A stretch of DNA of 47,973 nucleotides. Source: Vibrio tubiashii ATCC 19109 (GTDB lineage Bacteria > Pseudomonadota > Gammaproteobacteria > Enterobacterales > Vibrionaceae). A program made the translations under genes and the position numbers. The notes below the pieces were generated by a model, which saw only the letters and a list, made by a program, of their open reading frames with translations, had not been told where the DNA came from and did not search any database. Shown one piece after another: positions 7,736 to 42,977 of this stretch; within the stretch, counting starts at the first letter, position 1, and each line of letters starts with the position of its first letter. The stretch is taken from assembly GCF_000772105.1 (NCBI RefSeq), contig NZ_CP009359.1, positions 1-47,973 on the forward strand, in the 5' to 3' direction.

Positions 7736-7981
7736 TCATGCAGCATCATCGAGGACGGGCTTATTTAAGCTGACCTTAAGTTGGCCACCCCAAAGCAATC
7801 CAACCACCCCTAAGTTTTCTAGGTTGCGGCCAAGTGATGTTCTTTCCTCATATTGCTCATAAGGGAAAGTACAGTGTATGTATTTGTTCTTACACGCATC
7901 TGTTTTGGCTATATCTTCTAAAGATTCGATTGTACTCGCGTACATAAGGTGCTCACTCTTCGGTATAATTTGAATAAACAT
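7736..7981 (-). CDS. Hypothetical protein, last gene of the transfer block
   Basis: 81 residues from the ATG at 7981, preceded by AGGAG at 8 bases. The longer frame upstream overlaps the transglycosylase gene and is not needed. No signal peptide, membrane segment or recognised domain. It contains two cysteines (DACKNKYIHCTF) and a glycine- and leucine-rich stretch (LENLGVVGLLWGG). It starts three bases after the transglycosylase stop codon, so it belongs to that operon. Confidence 0.6.
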   Translation of the reverse strand: MFIQIIPKSEHLMYASTIESLEDIAKTDACKNKYIHCTFPYEQYEERTSLGRNLENLGVVGLLWGGQLKVSLNKPVLDDAA

Positions 7982-7983
7982 GT

Positions 7984-8511
7984 TTACCACTCCTGGTTTA
8001 AGACGTTTTTGAGATGTGTTAAGTATTTCATTTCGTAGATTTTGGCCAACTCGCCCCCCGCAGGACGATGGTAGCACCCTGCAGCTTTGATCCAATTGCT
8101 ATGCTTTTTGTAGCAGTCATTCATTACTTCCGCACTTCTGTTAATCGCAATATCTCTATCGAAGTAATCACAAGCGCTTCCAGTAGCCTTATTGTGATAT
8201 TTCCAGTGCAGTTGTGTTTCGCCTATATCGACGGCATTTGACACCGTTAGAATCCATTCTAGGGATTCACAGGCAGAGGATTTGCTATTGAAACGATAAC
8301 TAATCCCTCGCCAATTTAATGTGTATGACCAGGGCATAAACTGCCCTTCGTCTGTCGTGATCCCCGTTTCGGTTAGTGCAAGCGCGTAAAGTACCTCTTT
8401 AGGTATGTTGTGCTTTTGTTCAACGTCTTCATAAATTTGCTTGTGAGAATTGGCTAGAGCGACAGAGCTAAACAAGCTCAAGGTTAGGACTATTTTTCTT
8501 AACATAGACAT
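7984..8511 (-). CDS. Lytic transglycosylase, PilT/VirB1-like
   Basis: About 175 residues: signal peptide (LRKIVLTLSLFSSVALANS), then a small lysozyme-like transglycosylase domain. EVLYALALTETG contains the catalytic glutamate in the usual SLT setting, and NRSAEVMNDCYKKH and AAGCYHRP resemble the second half of the fold. It would open peptidoglycan locally for the pilus or secretion channel. R64-type plasmids have pilT in the pil operon and VirB systems have virB1; no other transglycosylase is visible, so one enzyme may serve both. The start (8511 or 8505) abuts the T tract of a terminator-like hairpin and has no clear ribosome site, which is odd. Confidence 0.8.
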   Translation of the reverse strand: MSMLRKIVLTLSLFSSVALANSHKQIYEDVEQKHNIPKEVLYALALTETGITTDEGQFMPWSYTLNWRGISYRFNSKSSACESLEWILTVSNAVDIGETQLHWKYHNKATGSACDYFDRDIAINRSAEVMNDCYKKHSNWIKAAGCYHRPAGGELAKIYEMKYLTHLKNVLNQEW

Positions 8512-8512
8512 C

Positions 8513-8536
8513 AAAAAAGGCAGTTAAACTGCCTTT
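8513..8536 (-). terminator. Terminator-like hairpin before the transglycosylase gene
   Basis: Read leftward, AAAAGGCAG, TTTAA, CTGCCTTTT is followed by more T residues and then directly by the start codon. It sits between the winged-helix gene and the transglycosylase gene. Anything transcribed from upstream must read through it. Confidence 0.75.
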
Positions 8537-8542
8537 TCTCGG

Positions 8543-8857
8543 TTACTTTGTGAAATACGAATTAAGTTTTTCTCGGATCGGTTTGATGTTGTCATACACG
8601 ACTTTTTTATCAAATACGCCCCAACTATCAACCGAGTAATAACCTTGTTTTGCAGTGCCATGATAGCTAGTTTTAATGCTGATACTATCTAACTCATTAA
8701 CGCTTTTTTGGATCGTGATATGCGGCCACCCTGTTTCTAGCTCTAAAGCCTTTAAGTTCATATTTGGTTTAGAATCCACTAAATAGGCAAGCACTAACTT
8801 TCGATAAAAAGCGGCACTGGTTTTTCCTTTTATTTCAATTTCTAGCAGGCTAGGCAT
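8543..8857 (-). CDS. Winged-helix DNA-binding protein
   Basis: 104 residues from the ATG at 8857, which overlaps the protease stop codon region. The longer frame upstream lies inside the protease gene. Residues 10-75 ([17 protein letters not shown], then [24 protein letters not shown]) read as a winged helix-turn-helix with a recognition helix around [11 protein letters not shown] recall similar small proteins on Vibrio chromosomes without a fixed role. Its coupling to the secreted protease gene suggests a local regulator, but this is inference. Confidence 0.65.
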
Positions 8858-36307: not shown

Positions 36308-36598
36308 CTAGCTTGTTGTGATGGTAATTCGAGACGGCCAACGCGCAATAATTTCATCGTATTCTTGACGAGAGACTGCTCGTTCCAATTCTTCTTTCGG
36401 TGCTTCGCTCACTACTGTGATAGAGACACCAAATTTACGACCATGTGTTTTTAAAGTCTCAAAAATTGCACTTTCTTCACTGTTCAATGTAGCAACATCA
36501 CGACCATTTAAGGAGTTGATACTTGGTTGATTTACTTCAACCGCTTTGCGGTTGGGATTGTGAGAGCGTGTTAGCTCACTTAGTCTTGAAAAATCCAT
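36308..36598 (-). CDS. Small soluble hypothetical protein
   Basis: 96 residues from the ATG at 36598. Serine- and asparagine-rich start, then FETLKTHGRKFGVSITVVSEAP and a charged end. It is the only clearly soluble protein among membrane neighbours in this part of the operon. No domain recognised. Confidence 0.6.
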   Translation of the reverse strand: MDFSRLSELTRSHNPNRKAVEVNQPSINSLNGRDVATLNSEESAIFETLKTHGRKFGVSITVVSEAPKEELERAVSRQEYDEIIARWPSRITITTS

Positions 36599-36605
36599 CA
36601 CTTCC

Positions 36606-36845
36606 CTACTTGTTTGATTTTTGCCATTTGGCGAATTGATACCCGATAAAAGACAGCACAGCTAACGAACCACAGTAAATAGTCGATTCATAAAAACCTC
36701 TATCTGCAAACAGCGCGGATATAAACATCAAAAAAGTCGCCACAGTGGATAAACAAACGATCACCTTTAGGTTCACCAACTCGTCTTCAAAGAACTCGCG
36801 CACTTTTTCACTACCTTGTAACTTTAATTTCAGTGATTTAAGCAT
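36606..36845 (-). CDS. Small two-helix membrane protein
   Basis: 79 residues: an amphipathic charged start, then hydrophobic segments VIVCLSTVATFLMFISALF and IYCGSLAVLSFIGYQFA. AGGAG precedes the ATG at 9 bases. Unknown function. Confidence 0.62.
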   Translation of the reverse strand: MLKSLKLKLQGSEKVREFFEDELVNLKVIVCLSTVATFLMFISALFADRGFYESTIYCGSLAVLSFIGYQFAKWQKSNK

Positions 36846-36862
36846 TCTCTATTTCTCCTGTT

Positions 36863-36899
36863 TTTTGCAGTTCTGCAAAAGGGCTCTTTTCCCCCGTTA
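36863..36899 (-). repeat. Gene-end repeat, copy 1, plus palindrome
   Basis: TTTTGCAG/CTGCAAAA (36863-36880) overlaps a 27-base block (36873-36899) that recurs at 37735-37761. Each copy includes the stop codon of the gene before it (read leftward). In leftward RNA it reads GGG...CCC followed by TTTT, like a short weak terminator. Confidence 0.55.
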
Positions 36900-37664
36900 A
36901 GACGTGTATTTGTCAATAACCAAATTAAACCTACGTTCTATGTCATTCGATAGGCTTCCAAGTTCTTTAGCTATAGCCGCTTTTCTCTCATTCTCATTAG
37001 CCATTATTTCCAACTGTTCAATATGCCAACGAACACTAGATTCAAAGCTCCAGTGATCTAGGTCGAGGTCGAAAAGCTTTGAGAAACTACGTCGCATATC
37101 ATTCAACTCTTTTTTCATTGAGGGATACTTCTCAATGAAATGAAGTTTAGAACCAATGTCTTTGCCAAATTTTTTGCGTAACTTCTCATGTTCCTTGTAA
37201 GAATCAAACTCACGAGGCTGAATAATTTCTGGCTGCGTTTGTCTTTGGTTGCCAGCTATGAGTAGTTTCAATAAAAGCTCATCATTTAGCTTGGCAGGGT
37301 GAAGTGTTGGACGCTTAACAGTGTTCCAAAATTCACCATTAAATGTGATTAGGCCGCATCCGTTAGGTATGTCTTTTTTAGTGATTAATCCTTTCGGAAC
37401 AGCAAAAACAACCCCGTAAGAAAAATCTAGATAGCTTTTCCATTTTGCCTTAGTAACGTCAGAACGAAAGTCCGATAAGCTAACTTTAATTTCGTAAGAA
37501 ATAGGGTTAGGGTTCGCAAAGCTTTTTTCGATTGTGAATACGTCAGGTCTAACCGAGCCGCTTTTACCTGCGGGTAGGTCTTCCCATACCATTCGACTTT
37601 CACCCATTAGGTGACGAGCAAGATTGTTCGCGAGCTCATTGTGAGTTAAATTACATGCCGCCAT
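36897..37664 (-). CDS. MmcB-like PD-(D/E)XK nuclease-fold protein
   Basis: 255 residues. The N-terminal 130 carry P40-D41 (SVRPDVFTIEK) and E58-I-K60 (ISYEIKVSLSDFRSD), the spacing of a PD-(D/E)XK active site. SYGVVFAVPKGL follows, as in the MmcB family of DNA repair-associated proteins. The C-terminal half is helical and charged and could bind DNA or a partner. AGGAG lies 8 bases before the ATG. Whether it cuts DNA is not known; it could process incoming or damaged DNA. Confidence 0.7.
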   Translation of the reverse strand: MAACNLTHNELANNLARHLMGESRMVWEDLPAGKSGSVRPDVFTIEKSFANPNPISYEIKVSLSDFRSDVTKAKWKSYLDFSYGVVFAVPKGLITKKDIPNGCGLITFNGEFWNTVKRPTLHPAKLNDELLLKLLIAGNQRQTQPEIIQPREFDSYKEHEKLRKKFGKDIGSKLHFIEKYPSMKKELNDMRRSFSKLFDLDLDHWSFESSVRWHIEQLEIMANENERKAAIAKELGSLSNDIERRFNLVIDKYTS

Positions 37665-37700
37665 GAATGACTCCTGTTTAGTCTTTGTTGGCAGGGTTGG

Positions 37701-37720
37701 TGTAGTGTTCCCGCACTACA
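37701..37720. repeat. Short perfect hairpin between genes
   Basis: TGTAGTG and CACTACA around six bases, in the gap after the start of the nuclease-like gene and before the end of the next. There is no T tract, so it is an RNA structure or operator rather than a terminator. Confidence 0.45.
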
Positions 37721-37734
37721 TCAGCCCATTCTCT

Positions 37735-37761
37735 CTGCAAAAGGGGTCATTTCCCCCGTTA
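37735..37761 (-). repeat. Gene-end repeat, copy 2
   Basis: Almost identical to 36873-36899, again ending with the stop codon of the preceding gene. Leftward RNA gives GGGG, a 7-base loop, CCCC, TTTT. Confidence 0.55.
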
Positions 37762-38010
37762 CTCGGTGATGATTGCAAAATCGTCTTCAACCAATTCTTG
37801 CGCCGTTTTAAGTCGTTGGCCAAGCTTAATGTAAAGCGCCTCTGCTGCTTCATAAGAGAGCTTGAGTTTATGAGTGTGCAAATTCTTTAACTCTGTTTCT
37901 GTGTGCGCTATAAGCTTGTTGCTAACAATCTCAAGCTCAACGCCTTTAATGTGCTCAACCACATGAGATTCTGTTAGTAGCGACACTTCAACGTCTTCTA
38001 TGAATGCCAT
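37759..38010 (-). CDS. Small acidic hypothetical protein
   Basis: 83 residues, acidic, soluble. It has a beta-rich start (FIEDVEVSLLTESHVVEHIKGVEL) and a helical end. GAGGGAATAGAGC directly before the ATG is a ribosome-site module shared with three other small genes. No family recognised. Confidence 0.6.
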   Translation of the reverse strand: MAFIEDVEVSLLTESHVVEHIKGVELEIVSNKLIAHTETELKNLHTHKLKLSYEAAEALYIKLGQRLKTAQELVEDDFAIITE

Positions 38011-38022
38011 GCTCTATTCCCT

Positions 38023-38304
38023 CTACGATTCGCTGTCTTGCTTAAGCATGACTTTAAACGATGCGTTTGCAGCAATTGACTCTCCAATAGGTGCGTCTTT
38101 CAGTTGCGAAACATCAGACTCAACAAACACGGCCTTAAGGTTCGATTGCAATTGTGATTCGTTAACGATCATTGTTTCATTGCTACCTTCTAGCTGAACC
38201 TCATAAACAACCCCATAGTCACGCTCAATACGCTCTAAAACTACCGCGCTTTTAGTTGGTTCACCATCAATGCAAACCTGTACTTTTTGACCATTTTTAA
38301 CCAT
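38023..38304 (-). CDS. Small hypothetical protein
   Basis: 93 residues from the ATG at 38304, chosen over the one at 38310 because GAGGGGAAATGAGC then aligns with the ribosome-site module of its neighbour. It has a beta-barrel-like pattern at the start (GQKVQVCIDGEPTKSAVVLER) and an acidic end. No family recognised. Confidence 0.58.
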   Translation of the reverse strand: MVKNGQKVQVCIDGEPTKSAVVLERIERDYGVVYEVQLEGSNETMIVNESQLQSNLKAVFVESDVSQLKDAPIGESIAANASFKVMLKQDSES

Positions 38305-38372
38305 GCTCATTTCCCCTCGTTTAGTTAATAAAAAACCCACTGTAAACAGTGGGCTAGTGAGGTGATTGATTG

Positions 38373-38588
38373 TTAGAACTTGAAACCTATACTCTTCAAA
38401 TACTCGATATGACTCTCGTACTTTTTTATGTGTCGGGTTCCAGTATTAGGTGAGATTCCAAACCGCTTTTCAGCCTCATAAACCGATGAAACTTTATCTT
38501 TTAAAACGGCTTCTACTAACTGCCTTTGCTCCTCTCGTTTAAAAAGGTGCTCTAGGATTAGTTTGAGTTTTTTATCGTTTGGGTGCAT
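38373..38588 (-). CDS. Small HTH protein (KorA/TrfB-like size)
   Basis: 71 residues. REEQRQLVEAVLKDKVSSVYEAEKRFGISPNTGTRHIKKY reads as a helix-turn-helix with ISPNTGTRHIKK as the recognition part. The size is that of plasmid global repressors such as KorA. It is the only clear DNA-binding protein in this operon, so it may bind the half-sites at 38937-38981. That is inference. Confidence 0.62.
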   Translation of the reverse strand: MHPNDKKLKLILEHLFKREEQRQLVEAVLKDKVSSVYEAEKRFGISPNTGTRHIKKYESHIEYLKSIGFKF

Positions 38589-38606
38589 TTAATTCTGAAT
38601 GTTAAC

Positions 38607-38624
38607 AAGCCCCTGACGGGGCTT
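38607..38624. repeat. Short hairpin between small genes
   Basis: AAGCCCC, TGAC, GGGGCTT, a perfect 7-bp stem without a good T tract on either strand. It sits after the 28-residue peptide gene and may be a partial terminator. Confidence 0.5.
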
Positions 38625-38627
38625 ACT

Positions 38628-38714
38628 TTAGAAGAGGATGAAACCTAAAGTTAAACCGGAAACCATGATAACGACAGAAGTCAGCATCATGTGATTTTCT
38701 ATCCACTTATCCAT
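38628..38714 (-). CDS. 28-residue membrane peptide
   Basis: A short gene with a near-ideal ribosome site (GGAGGTGATTTC before the ATG at 38714). The peptide is MDKWIENHMM followed by a hydrophobic helix (LTSVVIMVSGLTLGFILF). It overlaps the end of the preceding gene by 16 bases. The strong ribosome site is the main support. It may be a membrane microprotein working with its neighbours. Confidence 0.6.
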   Translation of the reverse strand: MDKWIENHMMLTSVVIMVSGLTLGFILF

Positions 38715-38887
38715 GAAATCACCTCCTTAGCTATGTCTAATTTGATGAAACCGCCAATAGTTAACCAGATTATAAGCCAGCGTTGGCAAAAACCAAACGT
38801 CTTTAAGCGTATCTCTGAGTTAATTTGCCTTACCTGTGCCTTTTCAAGCTCAGATGTGACAGGAGTATCGTTGTTGCCCTCACTCAT
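38699..38887 (-). CDS. Small membrane protein, first gene of operon
   Basis: 62 residues from the ATG at 38887, with GAGG upstream. A polar N-terminal half (EGNNDTPVTSELEKAQVRQ), then a hydrophobic helix (RWLIIWLTIGGFIKLDI). It is first in the operon, directly after a promoter and boxA-like element. Unknown function. Confidence 0.6.
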   Translation of the reverse strand: MSEGNNDTPVTSELEKAQVRQINSEIRLKTFGFCQRWLIIWLTIGGFIKLDIAKEVISWISG

Positions 38888-38900
38888 AACCACCTCACAT

Positions 38901-38981
38901 TGTTAAAGAACTAGGTCGTTTATGACCATGAGTTAATACTATCAAATACGTGATAGCATTACAAGCATTTTTTTGATAGTA
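38901..38981 (-). promoter_or_regulatory. Promoter, operators and boxA-like element of the small-protein operon
   Basis: Leftward promoter: TTGTAA (38959-38964), 17-base spacer, TAGTAT (38936-38941). A 10-bp inverted repeat, TACTATCAAA (38937-38946) and TTTGATAGTA (38972-38981), brackets it. A boxA-like AGTTCTTTAACA (38901-38912, 10 of 12 matches) follows before the first ribosome site. Repression by a dimeric protein at the half-sites is the simplest reading. Confidence 0.65.
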
Positions 38982-39105
38982 AATAATTTTGTGAGCCTTA
39001 GATTTTGATTTAGGAATATGTGTATTTTCCTCGTAGAGTCAGAAATAAACACACAACGGCTTTGAGCTGTGTCGGTTATGGAACCACATGACTGTACTGG
39101 CTTTG

Positions 39106-39147
39106 GGGGAAAACGCGACCACTAGAAACAAGGTCAAAACTTGCACA
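39106..39147 (+). repeat. 42-bp direct repeat, left copy
   Basis: Begins GGGGAAAACGCGACCACTAG and ends AAAACTTGCACA. It is identical over 42 bases to 40348-40389. The two copies bracket the single gene at 39205-40347; the left one supplies the -35 box of its promoter. Confidence 0.9.
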
Positions 39148-39189
39148 CTTATTTGAACCCATATAAACTACAATCAAACTAGGTTCAAA
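39141..39189 (+). promoter_or_regulatory. Promoter and operator of the CoiA-like fusion gene
   Basis: TTGCAC (39141-39146), 17-base spacer, TAAACT (39164-39169). The inverted repeat TTTGAACC/GGTTCAAA (39152-39159 and 39182-39189) encloses the -10 box, a likely repressor site. The C-terminal HTH of the gene product is a candidate for binding it. Confidence 0.55.
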
Positions 39190-39204
39190 AAAGTATGGTG
39201 ATAC

Positions 39205-40347
39205 ATGTCTGTATATTTAAGCCTTGGCAAAGATACACAAGGAAACTTTCATCACATCTACTCGCAGAAATCAGGAAAAGGCCACTTGGCCTGTCCTTTC
39301 TGTCACTGTCCGTTAATTGCTGTAAAAGGCAAAACTAAGGCGGCTCACTTTCGCCATGATGGTGAAACCTGTAAAGAGTCTTTGAATGAGATCCCGCAAA
39401 TTCCCGCTTGGCATCACTTTCACCTCAACTATTCGCTAGAGATCATCAACGCTTTAAAAGACGGCTATCAAGCGGATAGCAAGTCGCCCAACGTGTTTCA
39501 ACACTGGAAGTCTGGATTGCATCGCTTTACACGTACAGCCCAACGAGAACTGCTTAGCCGTGACGACTGGACAGATAACCTTATCTTCACCGATACCGCA
39601 AGAACTATCCTTGGTAGCTTACCGCTACTAGGGTTTAGCCAGTGGATGCGTAACACCTTACAAATGCGCGTTCACACATTGCGCGAAGCCATTGAACAAG
39701 GGACTCGACATCGAGCATGGCTAGAAATTGAGGCGCACCGTCAGCAAGCCATTCTCAAAGCGTCACTGTATCTGTTTGAGTACCAACTAGAGGATAACAG
39801 CGTTATTCACAAAGTTGGGAGAACATCGAGAGAGCCAGAACAACGGTTGAAAGAAACGGTACTCGATCTAGAAAAAGCCACAGGCAAAGCCGTACTTAAA
39901 AGCACTATTTTGCGCAAAGTTGCGAATTGTGGTCACGTTGAAAAGTATGTTTTTCATCGTTACAACAATCAGTTAGCTAACATTGGCTCACACACAGAAT
40001 ACCTGGTACTTGATGGTAAATCATTGAAGCGATTGAAAGCAGAATTTACCAAGCTGACTAACAACCATGAACCGTTCAACAAAGCGGAACGATTCATTGT
40101 TACAGGCCGTTGGAAGTATGAAGAAAAACGACTCGCAGCGTCTAAGCGTGGCATCGAGCTAACGCAACGCGAAAGCGGTAAGTTTGGTCGGCCAAAAGGA
40201 ACTACGGTCAGCACTGACGACTTTCTGGTAAAGCACTCAGATATTGTAACTAGCTTGGAACATGGCCGCTCTATCAACCAAACCGCAGAATTTACAGGTA
40301 AAGGACGTTCAACCGTCAAGCGCGTAAAAGCAGCCATGAACAAATGA
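39205..40347 (+). CDS. CoiA-like / GIY-YIG-like (T5orf172) / resolvase-HTH fusion protein
   Basis: 380 residues with three parts. (1) About 1-70: CoiA-like zinc module with C30, C33, C35 and H48, H51 (HLACPFCHCPL, KAAHFRH). (2) About 187-275: T5orf172/GIY-YIG-like domain (LYLFEYQLEDNSVIHKVGRT, then QRLKE, HVEKYVFHRYNN and SHTEYLV). (3) About 330-378: resolvase-type HTH (GRPKGTTVS, INQTAEFTGKGRSTVKRVKAAM). This suggests a DNA-processing protein with its own targeting domain. It is the only gene between two 42-bp perfect direct repeats; the right copy starts at the base after the stop codon. It is rightward among leftward genes. A domesticated homing-type or modification-related nuclease is possible. 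Confidence 0.7.
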   Translation: MSVYLSLGKDTQGNFHHIYSQKSGKGHLACPFCHCPLIAVKGKTKAAHFRHDGETCKESLNEIPQIPAWHHFHLNYSLEIINALKDGYQADSKSPNVFQHWKSGLHRFTRTAQRELLSRDDWTDNLIFTDTARTILGSLPLLGFSQWMRNTLQMRVHTLREAIEQGTRHRAWLEIEAHRQQAILKASLYLFEYQLEDNSVIHKVGRTSREPEQRLKETVLDLEKATGKAVLKSTILRKVANCGHVEKYVFHRYNNQLANIGSHTEYLVLDGKSLKRLKAEFTKLTNNHEPFNKAERFIVTGRWKYEEKRLAASKRGIELTQRESGKFGRPKGTTVSTDDFLVKHSDIVTSLEHGRSINQTAEFTGKGRSTVKRVKAAMNK

Positions 40348-40389
40348 GGGGAAAACGCGACCACTAGAAACAAGGTCAAAACTTGCACA
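40348..40389 (+). repeat. 42-bp direct repeat, right copy
   Basis: Identical to 39106-39147 and abutting the stop codon of the fusion gene. The distance between copies is 1242 bp. Recombination between them would remove the gene and leave one copy. Confidence 0.9.
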
Positions 40390-40416
40390 TCGTAGGATAT
40401 CTATTCGCCCTAGATA

Positions 40417-40450
40417 ACAATAAAAAGCCGCCCATGAAATAGACGGCTTT
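40417..40450 (-). terminator. Leftward terminator
   Basis: Read leftward, AAAGCCGTC, an 8-base loop and GGGCGGCTTT with one wobble pair, then further T residues. It most likely ends the leftward operon whose last gene stops at 40806. It is weaker in the rightward direction. Confidence 0.65.
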
Positions 40451-40805
40451 GGATTAGTACTTGATGTAAACAAAAGTTTATTAGGTTGGCTCTGTCAGTC
40501 TACAAAAGCTATATGAATTTATCAAGTTAGCAACTTTAGCTAGTAAACCAGGATAAAAAGCAACATTACTAAATTGCACCTACATTTTTTGGTTCGTGAT
40601 GTGGCTATTATGTTAAATCGCCTGGTTTTAGCATTATTTTGCCTGCTTCACTGCATTTGTTCCTCTAAATATTCAAAAAGTGCATTTTACCTTGCCATTG
40701 TAAGCGCCTTTACGTGTGTAATTTTATTACAGATTTACAAGCATATCGCCCTCAACTTACCACACTCCGTATTGCCAAGGAATCTCAGGCTTATTGCTTA
40801 AAAAA
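40451..40805. other. Non-coding stretch at the end of a leftward operon
   Basis: About 350 AT-rich bases. A rightward frame at 40574-40801 looks hydrophobic but has no ribosome site or neighbours and was not accepted. Nothing else stands out. Confidence 0.4.
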
Positions 40806-41240
40806 TCACTTTTTCAACTTAGAACCAGAAAAGGTTGACAATTTAAGACTCCCCCCAACCTTTGAACATTCTGTACCTGACAACGAAAGTGTAACCATGT
40901 GATTATCACAGAACCCCTCAAAGTCAACTTTAGACTCTAGGACAACCGAACTATCTGTGTATGTTAATGTTATAAGATCAGTTTTTGTATAAGTGTCATA
41001 AGCAATTGGTGATATATATCCATTCTCATATGCCACTTCTATAGAAAAACTTGACGCGTCCATCTTTCCAAAATCAAGTGCATCAGAAACGCCTGTAGAC
41101 AAATTAAGAAACGCCTGTTCTAGATCTTGGGTTGTGCGCTTAACTACTTCATCGATAAGAATATGAATAGCGGCCACAACTACCAACACCAAACAACAAA
41201 TTTTCACAAGCCTGATTTTTTTCTTTTGCATCAATGCCAT
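40806..41240 (-). CDS. Single-pass membrane protein, unknown
   Basis: 144 residues from the ATG at 41240, where the GGGGAATCGAGC module precedes it. A basic start (QKKKIRL), one membrane helix (LVKICCLVLVVVAAIHILI), then an extracytoplasmic part with cysteines at FCDNHM and TECSKV. The helix-then-globular layout with a cysteine pair resembles a pilin but there is no cleavage site. Last gene of its operon. Confidence 0.6.
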   Translation of the reverse strand: MALMQKKKIRLVKICCLVLVVVAAIHILIDEVVKRTTQDLEQAFLNLSTGVSDALDFGKMDASSFSIEVAYENGYISPIAYDTYTKTDLITLTYTDSSVVLESKVDFEGFCDNHMVTLSLSGTECSKVGGSLKLSTFSGSKLKK

Positions 41241-41251
41241 GCTCGATTCCC

Positions 41252-41554
41252 CTATAGATTGCTTGGAGTTGGTAACAACACTGGTAGAGCGCATATAATC
41301 AGGACGGATACCACTGCCTCTACACCACCCAATAGCATGTAAACCAAACCAGACACCGACAATACAAAAGGTGCAAAATATGGCACTTGCTTAGTAAACC
41401 ACTTACTCAAGAAGCGCAGTTTAACCAAAAGGCTTCGTTTACTGTCTATCACTGGCTTGAATACTGTTTGAGTTACAGTGGGCTTAAATAGCAATGTAAT
41501 CAAAACCATACAAAAAAACAGAAGGGCGTTAAGTGGTTCAAATACTGATTTCAT
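41252..41554 (-). CDS. Small membrane protein
   Basis: 100 residues from the ATG at 41554, with AAGGA upstream. Three hydrophobic segments (ALLFFCMVLITLL, APFVLSVSGLVYMLL, AVVSVLIICALPVLL) around a basic middle loop. Unknown function. Confidence 0.58.
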   Translation of the reverse strand: MKSVFEPLNALLFFCMVLITLLFKPTVTQTVFKPVIDSKRSLLVKLRFLSKWFTKQVPYFAPFVLSVSGLVYMLLGGVEAVVSVLIICALPVLLPTPSNL

Positions 41555-41568
41555 GGCTAATTTCCTTC

Positions 41569-41673
41569 TCAAGATAGATCGCCAACATAGAGGCTACAAA
41601 GAGACATAAACAAGGCTGACAATGAAGCCCATACAGCAAACTTTTGATACTTATTAAAAGATATTTTCGACAT
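41569..41673 (-). CDS. 34-residue membrane peptide
   Basis: A short gene beginning MSKISFNKYQKFAVW, with one hydrophobic helix (FAVWASLSALFMSLCSLYV). AGGGG lies 7 bases before the ATG. It starts five bases after the stop of the preceding gene and ends just before the next ribosome site. The tight packing and ribosome site support it. Confidence 0.55.
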   Translation of the reverse strand: MSKISFNKYQKFAVWASLSALFMSLCSLYVGDLS

Positions 41674-41677
41674 CTCT

Positions 41678-41860
41678 TTACCCCTTAAGATCACTTCTCA
41701 TTAGAGAGTCATTCTTTTTAGAGGCTTCAAGTAATGATTTTCTTAGTTCCTCAAACGACTCGGTGTTTTCAATAATCGTATTTATTTCATCTAGCGCTAC
41801 ATTGAGCAATGATGTTGCCACATAATCTAGCGCCTCTTGACGGGCTAGTTTTTTATCCAC
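41678..41860 (-). CDS. Small helical protein
   Basis: 60 residues from a GTG at 41860, chosen because GAGGGGAATAAAA then aligns with the module before the genes at 38010, 38304 and 41240. It is acidic and helical (ARQEALDYVATSLLNVALDEI). No family recognised. Confidence 0.55.
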   Translation of the reverse strand: MDKKLARQEALDYVATSLLNVALDEINTIIENTESFEELRKSLLEASKKNDSLMRSDLKG

Positions 41861-41878
41861 TTTTATTCCCCTCATTCA

Positions 41879-42085
41879 TCAAATAACTCTAATCGCATCA
41901 CCAATAAACGTGTTAGTGATTAAATAGGCTGCAAAGCTAAAAGCAAACACATTTACGATAAGCGAATAAATCAAAGCCATTGGCTCAAACTCGTTCTGAG
42001 ATTTAAACTGACCATACAAAACAAATACAGACAAACCAAAGACAACGGCCAGTGATGCCAGTTTTAGGTATGTAGTCCAATCCAC
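41879..42085 (-). CDS. Small two-helix membrane protein
   Basis: 68 residues from a GTG with AGGGGG 8 bases upstream; the ribosome site overlaps the end of the preceding gene. Hydrophobic segments LASLAVVFGLSVFVLYG and LIYSLIVNVFAFSFAAYLI. Unknown function. Confidence 0.6.
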   Translation of the reverse strand: MDWTTYLKLASLAVVFGLSVFVLYGQFKSQNEFEPMALIYSLIVNVFAFSFAAYLITNTFIGDAIRVI

Positions 42086-42089
42086 GGCT

Positions 42090-42911
42090 TTACCCCCTAA
42101 GAAACGGTACAGTAGAAAGGCCGTTATTGAGTAACCAGTTTTTGATCTCTTCTTCGGTTAAGTGAGGTTCTACAATAGCCCAACGAAAGCCTTGTTTAGA
42201 CCACTTACTGCCTGCGCCTTTGAATTCAACCTCGTCAACATAAACAACTACGATTTCGTTACCATCGCCTGTTTTTTGTGGGTAGCGCTCGATCTTATCA
42301 CTGGTACGAATAGTCAAACTCTCGTTATACATGTAAGTGTCTGCAATCACATCCGTTTCCCTCTTAGGCTCTATAAATGATAGGTCTGAGCTCTCGTTTG
42401 TTGGAAATATCATGTATTCTGGAACGCCACAAAGAAGCAAAATATTGGCGTATGTACCAAACGTTATTTTTGCTTCGCGAATCTGAATGCTTAACCAATT
42501 ACTATCAGCTCCTACCCTTTTGGCCAACTCCTGCCTGGTTAAACCGGTTATTGATTTTTTCCCAACAAAATCTGTTAGTACATCAGCAATCGGACATTGA
42601 TATTGTTCCGCAGTCATAATCAGTTGTGAGTCAATGCGAGATTTCCAATCAACACTAAGTGGTTTTACATATGGCTTACCGTTGGCCATAGCGTGAACAA
42701 TGTTAAAAGCCCAAAAAGGGACGGATGATTTAGCCTCTGGATTAACATCAGATTTTGCTATCCAATTGCGAAAACTACGCCCACCAATTCCCAATAAAGT
42801 ATGTAGCTCAAAAAGATCTACTGATTTATTGCTAGCAGCTAGATTAGCCATTTTTACGAAATCGCCAACAGTAGGCTTTTCGAAGTCGCCTGCTAACTGA
42901 ACCTGTTTCAT
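42090..42911 (-). CDS. Two-HTH regulator candidate
   Basis: 273 residues from the ATG at 42911, with AAGGT upstream. Two HTH-like regions: about 36-70 (FELHTLLGIGGRSFRNWIAKSD) and about 127-165 (LTRQELAKRVGADSNWLSIQIR). The C-terminal third is beta-rich and acidic (DEVEFKGAGSKWSKQGFRWAIV). Probably a transcription regulator of the accessory genes; the family is unknown to me. Confidence 0.6.
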   Translation of the reverse strand: MKQVQLAGDFEKPTVGDFVKMANLAASNKSVDLFELHTLLGIGGRSFRNWIAKSDVNPEAKSSVPFWAFNIVHAMANGKPYVKPLSVDWKSRIDSQLIMTAEQYQCPIADVLTDFVGKKSITGLTRQELAKRVGADSNWLSIQIREAKITFGTYANILLLCGVPEYMIFPTNESSDLSFIEPKRETDVIADTYMYNESLTIRTSDKIERYPQKTGDGNEIVVVYVDEVEFKGAGSKWSKQGFRWAIVEPHLTEEEIKNWLLNNGLSTVPFLRG

Positions 42912-42977
42912 ATTGTTACCTTCAATATCTGTTATATATTTAAGCGCCCTCAAACATAGCTGAAAGCGCTACTTCAC

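Follow-up and report, generated by a model that had tools for sequence, protein, structure and literature searches.

The GIY-YIG gene that lies between two identical 42-bp repeats on contig C6 of Vibrio tubiashii ATCC 19109 is probably a mobile cassette that sits in the two-core remains of an integron-like platform. The window, that is, the whole stretch of DNA analysed, is the complete contig of 47,973 bp, which looks like a conjugative plasmid because it encodes a Rep3 initiator, a type IV coupling protein, TrbI- and VirB4-type proteins and an SSB. Comparison with relatives showed that the platform comprises a gene for a small tyrosine recombinase, an outward leader of ~ 90 nt, a 10-bp core and then interchangeable units. 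The units start at the core and many also end in one, and their presence or absence and their order change with breakpoints at the core. The comparison drew on plasmid searches that returned 460 records for the type-1 recombinase and 189 for the type-2 recombinase; 30 plasmid regions were hand-picked, in part solely for the GIY gene. A scan of genome contigs gave nine loci, all but one in Vibrio, and viral contigs gave one distant match.

The 42-bp repeat consists of a core and a cassette end

The 42-bp copies at 39106-39147 and 40348-40389 were identical and spaced 1242 bp apart. The ORF for a 380-aa protein (39205-40347, plus strand) ended with its stop codon at 40347 and the right copy began at the next base, exactly as the preliminary description had it. 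With up to 3 mismatches allowed, the pattern was present at two sites in the organism's own genome (5,540,337 bases, 6 contigs) and at none in the control, and by our estimate chance would not produce a perfect repeat of 42 bp. The flanking ORFs of at least 80 aa (36897-38340; 40806-42953) are leftward, apart from a mechanical plus-strand ORF (42377-42619) inside a leftward one, in agreement with the earlier observation of a rightward unit among leftward genes; a minus-strand ORF (39969-40388) overlaps the GIY-YIG gene. No tRNA was found in the window, and no Rfam element in the window, L003 or L035. A separate 28-bp repeat, 93% identical, was seen at 36872-36899 and 37734-37761, at the ends of neighbouring leftward genes. 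The features of the locus are listed below.

38993-39016, minus strand: integrase remnant, the first ~ 8 codons (IPKSKSKA) of a probably lost type-1 integrase, start codon changed; aligns with the integrase starts of L003, L010 and L011
39017-39105, minus strand: attI-like leader running from the old integrase start to the core; 79.5% identity with its counterpart in pYJ016 (L003)
39106-39115, plus strand: left core GGGGAAAACG, putative attI-like recombination site; distance to the old start codon as in relatives
39116-40357, plus strand: GIY-YIG gene cassette, 1242 bp with the right core included
39144-39159 (left arm, plus strand) and 39182-39197 (right arm): inverted repeat upstream of the GIY gene, conserved, probable operator
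39205-40347, plus strand: 380-aa protein with a CxxC/HFRH/C N terminus, a T5orf172 (GIY-YIG) nuclease domain and a C-terminal HTH
40348-40357, plus strand: right core GGGGAAAACG, immediately 3' of the stop codon
40358-40389, plus strand: the first 32 bp of the GIY cassette repeated, probably left over from a further cassette that was deleted

When the relatives were compared, the 42-bp repeat resolved into the 10-bp core GGGGAAAACG and the first 32 bp of the 1242-bp GIY cassette. In the plasmid relatives that were read closely, from 53 matching records, similarity begins and ends at GGGGAAAACG: to the left of the GIY gene stands the core followed by CGACCACTAG, and to its right the stop codon, the core and then plasmid-specific sequence. 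The boundary common to the relatives is 10-11 bp, compared with 42 bp in the window, and the 42-bp sequence, which the window holds twice, was found in one place only in each of nine plasmid records, all from Vibrio (match covering at least 80%). Because similarity in the relatives breaks at the core and the 42-bp sequence is single-place there, the repeat was interpreted as core plus cassette left end. The preliminary description had suggested a cassette that inserted with a duplication or could be lost by recombination. A discrete cassette that seems to have come and gone at a fixed site was supported by these single-place occurrences and by a plasmid pair that differs exactly at the core (described below). 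A 42-bp target duplication was rejected, since the relatives have only 10-11 bp in common.

A fixed core lies beside genes for small tyrosine recombinases

In pYJ016 (L003) and others, a gene for a 223-aa 'site-specific integrase' (type 1) diverges from the left core, with ~ 90 nt between core and start codon. Leaders were scanned for the best core match 60-190 nt out, leaving aside 10 type-1 and 3 type-2 loci without a start and all loci whose first 200 nt of leader had already been seen. Of 23 distinct type-1 leaders, 17 had a core with at most one mismatch, placed 75-91 nt from the start codon; for type 2 the corresponding figures were 8 of 14 distinct leaders and 93-94 nt. Taking both types together, 25 of 37 leaders carry a fixed, attI-like core 75-94 nt out from the integrase gene. 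In a conservation profile built only from rows with at most one core mismatch, pairwise identity across the core was 0.88-1.0 for type 1 (n = 17) and 0.57-1.0 for type 2 (n = 8), falling to 0.32 and 0.18, respectively, one base further on. As these rows were selected by the core, the telling part is the drop in identity after it. We infer that the core beside the integrase gene recombines.

Among the other type-1 leaders, two (L091 and L026) have a core with two mismatches, and three or four mismatches were counted in two from Shewanella, one from Burkholderia and one from Pseudomonas, where GGAAA-type sequences (TTCACGGAAA, CCTCGGAAA) were seen by eye at the core position. Among the other type-2 leaders, a 431-aa gene stands in between with the core beyond it in L004 and L059, two have two mismatches and two carry a TTCACGGAAAG-type core. 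The GGGGAAAACG core itself was present in most Vibrio examined and, with one mismatch, in Catenovulum; TTCACGGAAAG occurs in Shewanella and one Vibrio chromosome.

The recombinase matched Pfam PF00589 at 63 bits (cut-off 27.1), and the 36 best Foldseek matches, obtained with a weak model (mean pLDDT 63, TM 0.34-0.43), were all tyrosine recombinases. Against the XerD model, the alignment of the protein tested began only at position 102; FimB-like inverters also lack the N-terminal domain. The R-K-H-R-H pentad and the tyrosine are complete in 13 of 13 aligned type-1 proteins. Type-2 proteins, of 209 aa and ~ 22% identical to type 1, have open genes in Vibrio and Shewanella, and in the aligned set (L018, L004, L059, L056, L064-L067 and L069) the K, both H and the Y are gone in 9 of 9, with the first R found in 1/9 and the second in 9/9. 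Since type-2 proteins have no tyrosine, cassettes beside them need a recombinase in trans. L021, L023 and L068 are copies on contigs 1.6-4.1 Mb long, which are presumably chromosomal.

The sole match to the type-1 query in the organism's own genome was a type-2 gene on contig C5 (45816-46442; L018, L061). This 57-kb contig is probably a plasmid, and the gene is accompanied there by the same core and the non-coding cassette. The 431-aa ORF that precedes the type-2 gene at L004:4557-5852, L059:4706-6001 and L060:4706-6001, with the core in front, shares a single base with the start of some type-2 genes in an operon-like manner. Its product gave weak, below-cut-off matches to TelA and coiled-coil-type models, and the one such ORF tested had no Pfam recombinase match. 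Genes annotated as DUF2913 family were noted near recombinases, arrays or GIY genes in L006, L008, L010, L015, L017, L059, L060 and L095, and L014 has an annotated gene for the GMA-1 class A beta-lactamase (7872-8720) on the 3' side of a type-1 integrase and off the cassette side.

Interchangeable units are bounded by the core

The units recognised in the arrays are given below; cores have at most one mismatch unless stated otherwise.

GIY unit: 1242 bp; left core to stop codon 1232 nt in all 8 copies, 7 of which have a right core with at most one mismatch immediately behind the stop (three mismatches in L037)
Dam-like methylase unit: ~ 1140 bp; L006 and L091; core at both ends, one bound of each with two mismatches
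Non-coding unit: 120-129 bp; cores at both ends in L035 and L059; only a left core shown in L003, L006, L012, L015, L031, L091, L092 and L112
GGCGCACC unit: 834-884 bp; minus-strand ORF; both cores in L012 and L035, left core only in L007
101-aa ORF unit: L012; cores at both ends
139-aa ORF unit: L013 and L094 (same integrase and array); cores at both ends
GTATGACAC unit: starts at the core in L010, L013, L094, L095 and L113 (two mismatches in L113); right core not found

The left core of the GIY copy in L006 has two mismatches, and left cores are missing from L112 and L113. The stop codon abuts or overlaps the core in the GIY unit and in the ORF units of L012 and L013. The arrays are short, mostly of 1-3 units, and several first units lack a right core at one mismatch. 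Cores within one array share their orientation. The genes in the units are read in either direction.

The GIY unit lies right behind the leader in L003, L007, L015, L084 and the window, and after the Dam unit in L006. At least four different sequences come next after it, namely the non-coding unit (L003, L006, L015, L112), the GGCGCACC cassette (L007), cassette G (L113), another sequence (L004) and the GIY left end (window). Plasmid pLMB96 is arranged integrase-core-Dam-core-non-coding and pVv_GCU-01-2 is arranged integrase-core-Dam-core-GIY-core-non-coding. This pair (V. vulnificus, V. campbellii), which differs by exactly the GIY cassette, at the core, is a natural empty site. The Dam units of the two are only 92% and the non-coding units only 83% identical, so the event was not recent. 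In L003, L006 and L015 the GIY cassettes are 99.6-99.8% identical and their integrase genes 62-69% identical; here the break at the core is visible, and the moving side is ambiguous because plasmid backbone genes are common to all three.

In 17 complete plasmids the exact core occurred at 23 sites, 17 in arrays and 6 elsewhere, compared with 7 for the reversed control; it was absent from 3 of the 17, and outside arrays it stood at background level. The exact 14-mer TTTGGGGGAAAACG was found at 13 sites in 12 of 227 Vibrio genomes (reversed control, 2), of which seven lie beside a recombinase gene, one is the window and five have no recombinase match within ~ 1.5 kb. In G200, a presumed Vibrio chromosome of 5.9 Mb, the variant core TTTCACGGAAAG occurred three times, all in one array beside a type-2 gene (L096:10693-11837), with a reversed control of 2. 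A convincing row of repeated cores was not found in the Shewanella, Pseudomonas and Burkholderia plasmids examined.

The non-coding unit, which carries inverted repeats, recurs at L003:9366-9494, L035:13203-13331 and L059:4428-4547, and is a candidate promoter, terminator or RNA. Its interpretation as a structured RNA of ~ 125 bp was dropped, as two-sided change was seen in only 1 of 23 predicted pairs.

The GIY-YIG protein and its upstream region

The preliminary description had proposed a three-part protein. The T5orf172 part held, at 27.1 bits against a Pfam cut-off of 20, while the CoiA-like N terminus was weak (DUF7828, 21.5 bits, cut-off 25.7) and 6 of 55 homologues carry an annotated resolvase-type HTH (PF02796). 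In an alignment of 30 sequences, Y189, K203, G205, R214 and E246 are invariant, as are C30, C33, H48, H51 and C56, and these are putative active-site and metal-binding residues. The predicted structure had a mean pLDDT of 88.9. A defence-system label was tried for the protein and rejected (PADLOC best E 0.0028; PHROGs none).

Upstream of the gene, an inverted repeat with 16-nt arms, two mismatches and a 22-nt separation was called in 7 of 10 copies tested; it was present in L016 and L017, where the GIY genes lie outside arrays, and was not called at that cut-off in L003, L006 and L015. The GIY genes of L016 and L017 have no core and align only from about AAAACTTGCACA, which is the start of the promoter region with the inverted repeat. 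The palindrome shares only 39144-39147 with the 42-bp sequence and would be a better candidate than the core or the 42-bp repeat for the binding site of the protein.

The history of the window locus

The leader is kept, ~ 8 codons of the integrase remain and 38011-38323 matches DNA that lies beyond integrase and mazEF in V. chagasii p3, so a segment with integrase and mazEF has probably been lost or exchanged for other DNA, which would leave the cassette stranded. No further integrase trace was found in the window, the best tblastn E-values being 0.048 for the window and 0.15 for this area. In having a cassette without an integrase, the window resembles integron arrays that lack one.

To the 3' side of the right core, 32 bp correspond to the cassette's own left end and are followed by unrelated sequence. 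Most simply, another GIY cassette would have stood here in tandem before it was deleted, with the second 42-bp copy probably marking its left end; a comparable GIY stump, 68 bp without a gene, is present in pMBL287 (L009:6001-6068). An empty site for the window's flanks was not found, with 40380-41300 unmatched among plasmids and 36500-39105 matched only in pieces.

Proposed mechanism

In the proposed mechanism, the type-1 recombinase, with its full catalytic set in 223 aa and without an N-terminal core-binding domain, would cut within the core and join a circular cassette to a core, either the one next to its own gene or one belonging to a different cassette, and the reverse reaction would release the cassette as a circle. 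Sites beside type-2 genes might gain cassettes through type 1 acting in trans or with type 2 as a partner. In the window, a first GIY cassette would have been captured, followed by a second copy or near copy, of which all but the first 32 bp was subsequently deleted, giving the 42-bp repeat. The cassette would retain its own promoter region and probable operator, and the GIY-YIG protein would be cargo, the recombinase being separate.

A normal tyrosine-recombinase site has two arms; here only one half of the site is conserved, with a faint signal to the right of the core. A bolder interpretation, which we advance tentatively and consider possible, is that this is a second, independently evolved gene-capture system, in which a catalytic-domain-only tyrosine recombinase would act on double-stranded, one-armed cores without a folded attC, lineage-specific cores would define separate cassette pools, and a conserved, catalytically dead paralogue would hold the same site as partner, regulator or competitor, with related enzymes and a possible site in Pseudomonas and Burkholderia plasmids.

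Alternative explanations

The recombinase could instead be a plasmid multimer resolvase with the core as its resolution site, the cassettes being by-products of occasional intermolecular recombination (plasmid fusion and deletion), as with Xer-site modules, and no dedicated capture system. Most loci are on plasmids, often near toxin-antitoxin genes, although the collection searched consisted of plasmids; the arrays are short, the enzyme has a catalytic domain only, and modules flanked by Xer sites are known from Acinetobacter, as excerpts of the literature describe them. A resolvase does not, however, fit well with single-gene and even non-coding units that recur with a core at both ends and have stop codons abutting it, with the shared orientation of the cores in an array or with the copies on presumed chromosomes, and we regard this explanation as unlikely.

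The preliminary description had also suggested that the encoded protein acts on the repeat, and in that case the GIY-YIG/HTH protein would itself move the unit by cutting there, as a homing-like or self-mobile cassette. The gene does sit exactly between the repeats, the GIY-YIG residues are conserved in 30 of 30 aligned sequences and some homologues have a resolvase-type HTH. Yet the same core bounds Dam, non-coding and other units without a GIY gene and adjoins recombinase genes whatever comes next, marking their leaders with other sequence behind, and the gene's own palindrome appears the better binding site. GIY genes without a core exist (L016, L017), and the protein was rejected as the mover; we give this explanation very little credence. 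It is harder still to credit homologous recombination between a conserved leader and backbone, with the core a mere regulatory element of the integrase promoter: the leader is indeed conserved near the integrase and L003, L006 and L015 share backbone genes, but identity breaks off immediately behind the core, cores also close units that lie at a distance from leaders, and ~ 10 bp is too short for RecA. A cassette of an integron-like platform is the preferred reading, and the earlier idea of a small mobile unit not described before was too narrow in scope, the unit being one cassette of a larger platform.

Comparison with known systems

In integrons, the integrase is read away from the array, the site lies by its start, the units mostly hold one gene and end in a short core, and orphan arrays occur. 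The present platform shares the recombinase gene read away from the cassettes, the site beside its start, the usually one-gene units with a short core and an interchangeable cassette array. It differs in the core, in a GIY unit with its own promoter region, in genes read either way, in short arrays and in a recombinase that is not IntI and aligns only to the part of the Xer model behind the N-terminal domain. The IntI model (NCBIfam TIGR02249) scored 22.6 bits for the type-1 and 28.0 bits for the type-2 protein against a cut-off of 265. An attC-like fold was found at none of 10 junctions (window and six other loci), with folding z-scores from -1.7 to +1.1 (RNA energies, 60 shuffles; the L091 cut begins a few nt late), and an inverse core with at most two mismatches was absent at 8 of the 10, the remaining two having it at distances of 216 and 461 nt from the end. 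Cassette ends of attC type were rejected on both tests at these junctions. The platform works like an integron, yet it is not classed as one, because the recombinase scores far below the IntI cut-off and no attC-like fold was found at the 10 junctions.

At Acinetobacter pdif modules, the host XerCD acts on two-armed sites of ~ 28 bp. According to excerpts of the published accounts, these too are plasmid gene modules bounded by tyrosine-recombinase (XerC/XerD) sites; the difference is that here a dedicated recombinase gene stands beside a core of which only one conserved half was seen. SE and GInt elements are described, in an excerpt of their account, as having gammaproteobacterial tyrosine recombinases together with Tfp or GinC, partners with the fold only and no catalytic residues (PMC10214605). 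Because such non-catalytic fold proteins are parts of SE and GInt, the type-2 proteins, which they resemble, have a precedent in that excerpt (PMC10214605). The same excerpt gives SE and GInt as carrying intA-tfp-intB-srap or ginABCD and a Tfp survey that excluded proteins below 550 aa (PMC10214605). By contrast, type 2 has only ~ 209 aa and the cassettes here carry no recombinase; judged from annotated neighbours, neither gene set was found at the arrays, which have a single small integrase.

The rulB ILEs of Pseudomonas are likewise called integron-like and site-specific, and two recombinases here adjoin rulAB or a Y-family polymerase gene (L058, L055). They differ in their recombinases of 385, 525 and 535 aa and in their insertion into rulB, as given in part of the source (PMC4542609). 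In an excerpt of a tyrosine recombinase survey (PMC8138268), members of the 'simple' groups are said to comprise, as a rule, a core-binding domain and a catalytic one, whereas the match of the protein tested here to XerD lacks the first 101 positions.

Significance

No description of such a platform was recognised among the matches listed in the open-licence PMC literature. Integrons are the textbook route by which bacteria collect single genes, and what is seen on Vibrio plasmids looks like a gene-collecting system that is built like an integron from different parts. If this is true, cassette capture would have evolved more than once, with an unrelated recombinase, simpler sites and a cargo of methylase and nuclease, and there would be a cassette system with no need for single-strand folding. 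The conservation of a dead paralogue at the same site would pose a testable question of how such platforms are controlled, and the 10-bp core would give annotators a mark by which to find cassettes that are now listed as hypothetical genes.
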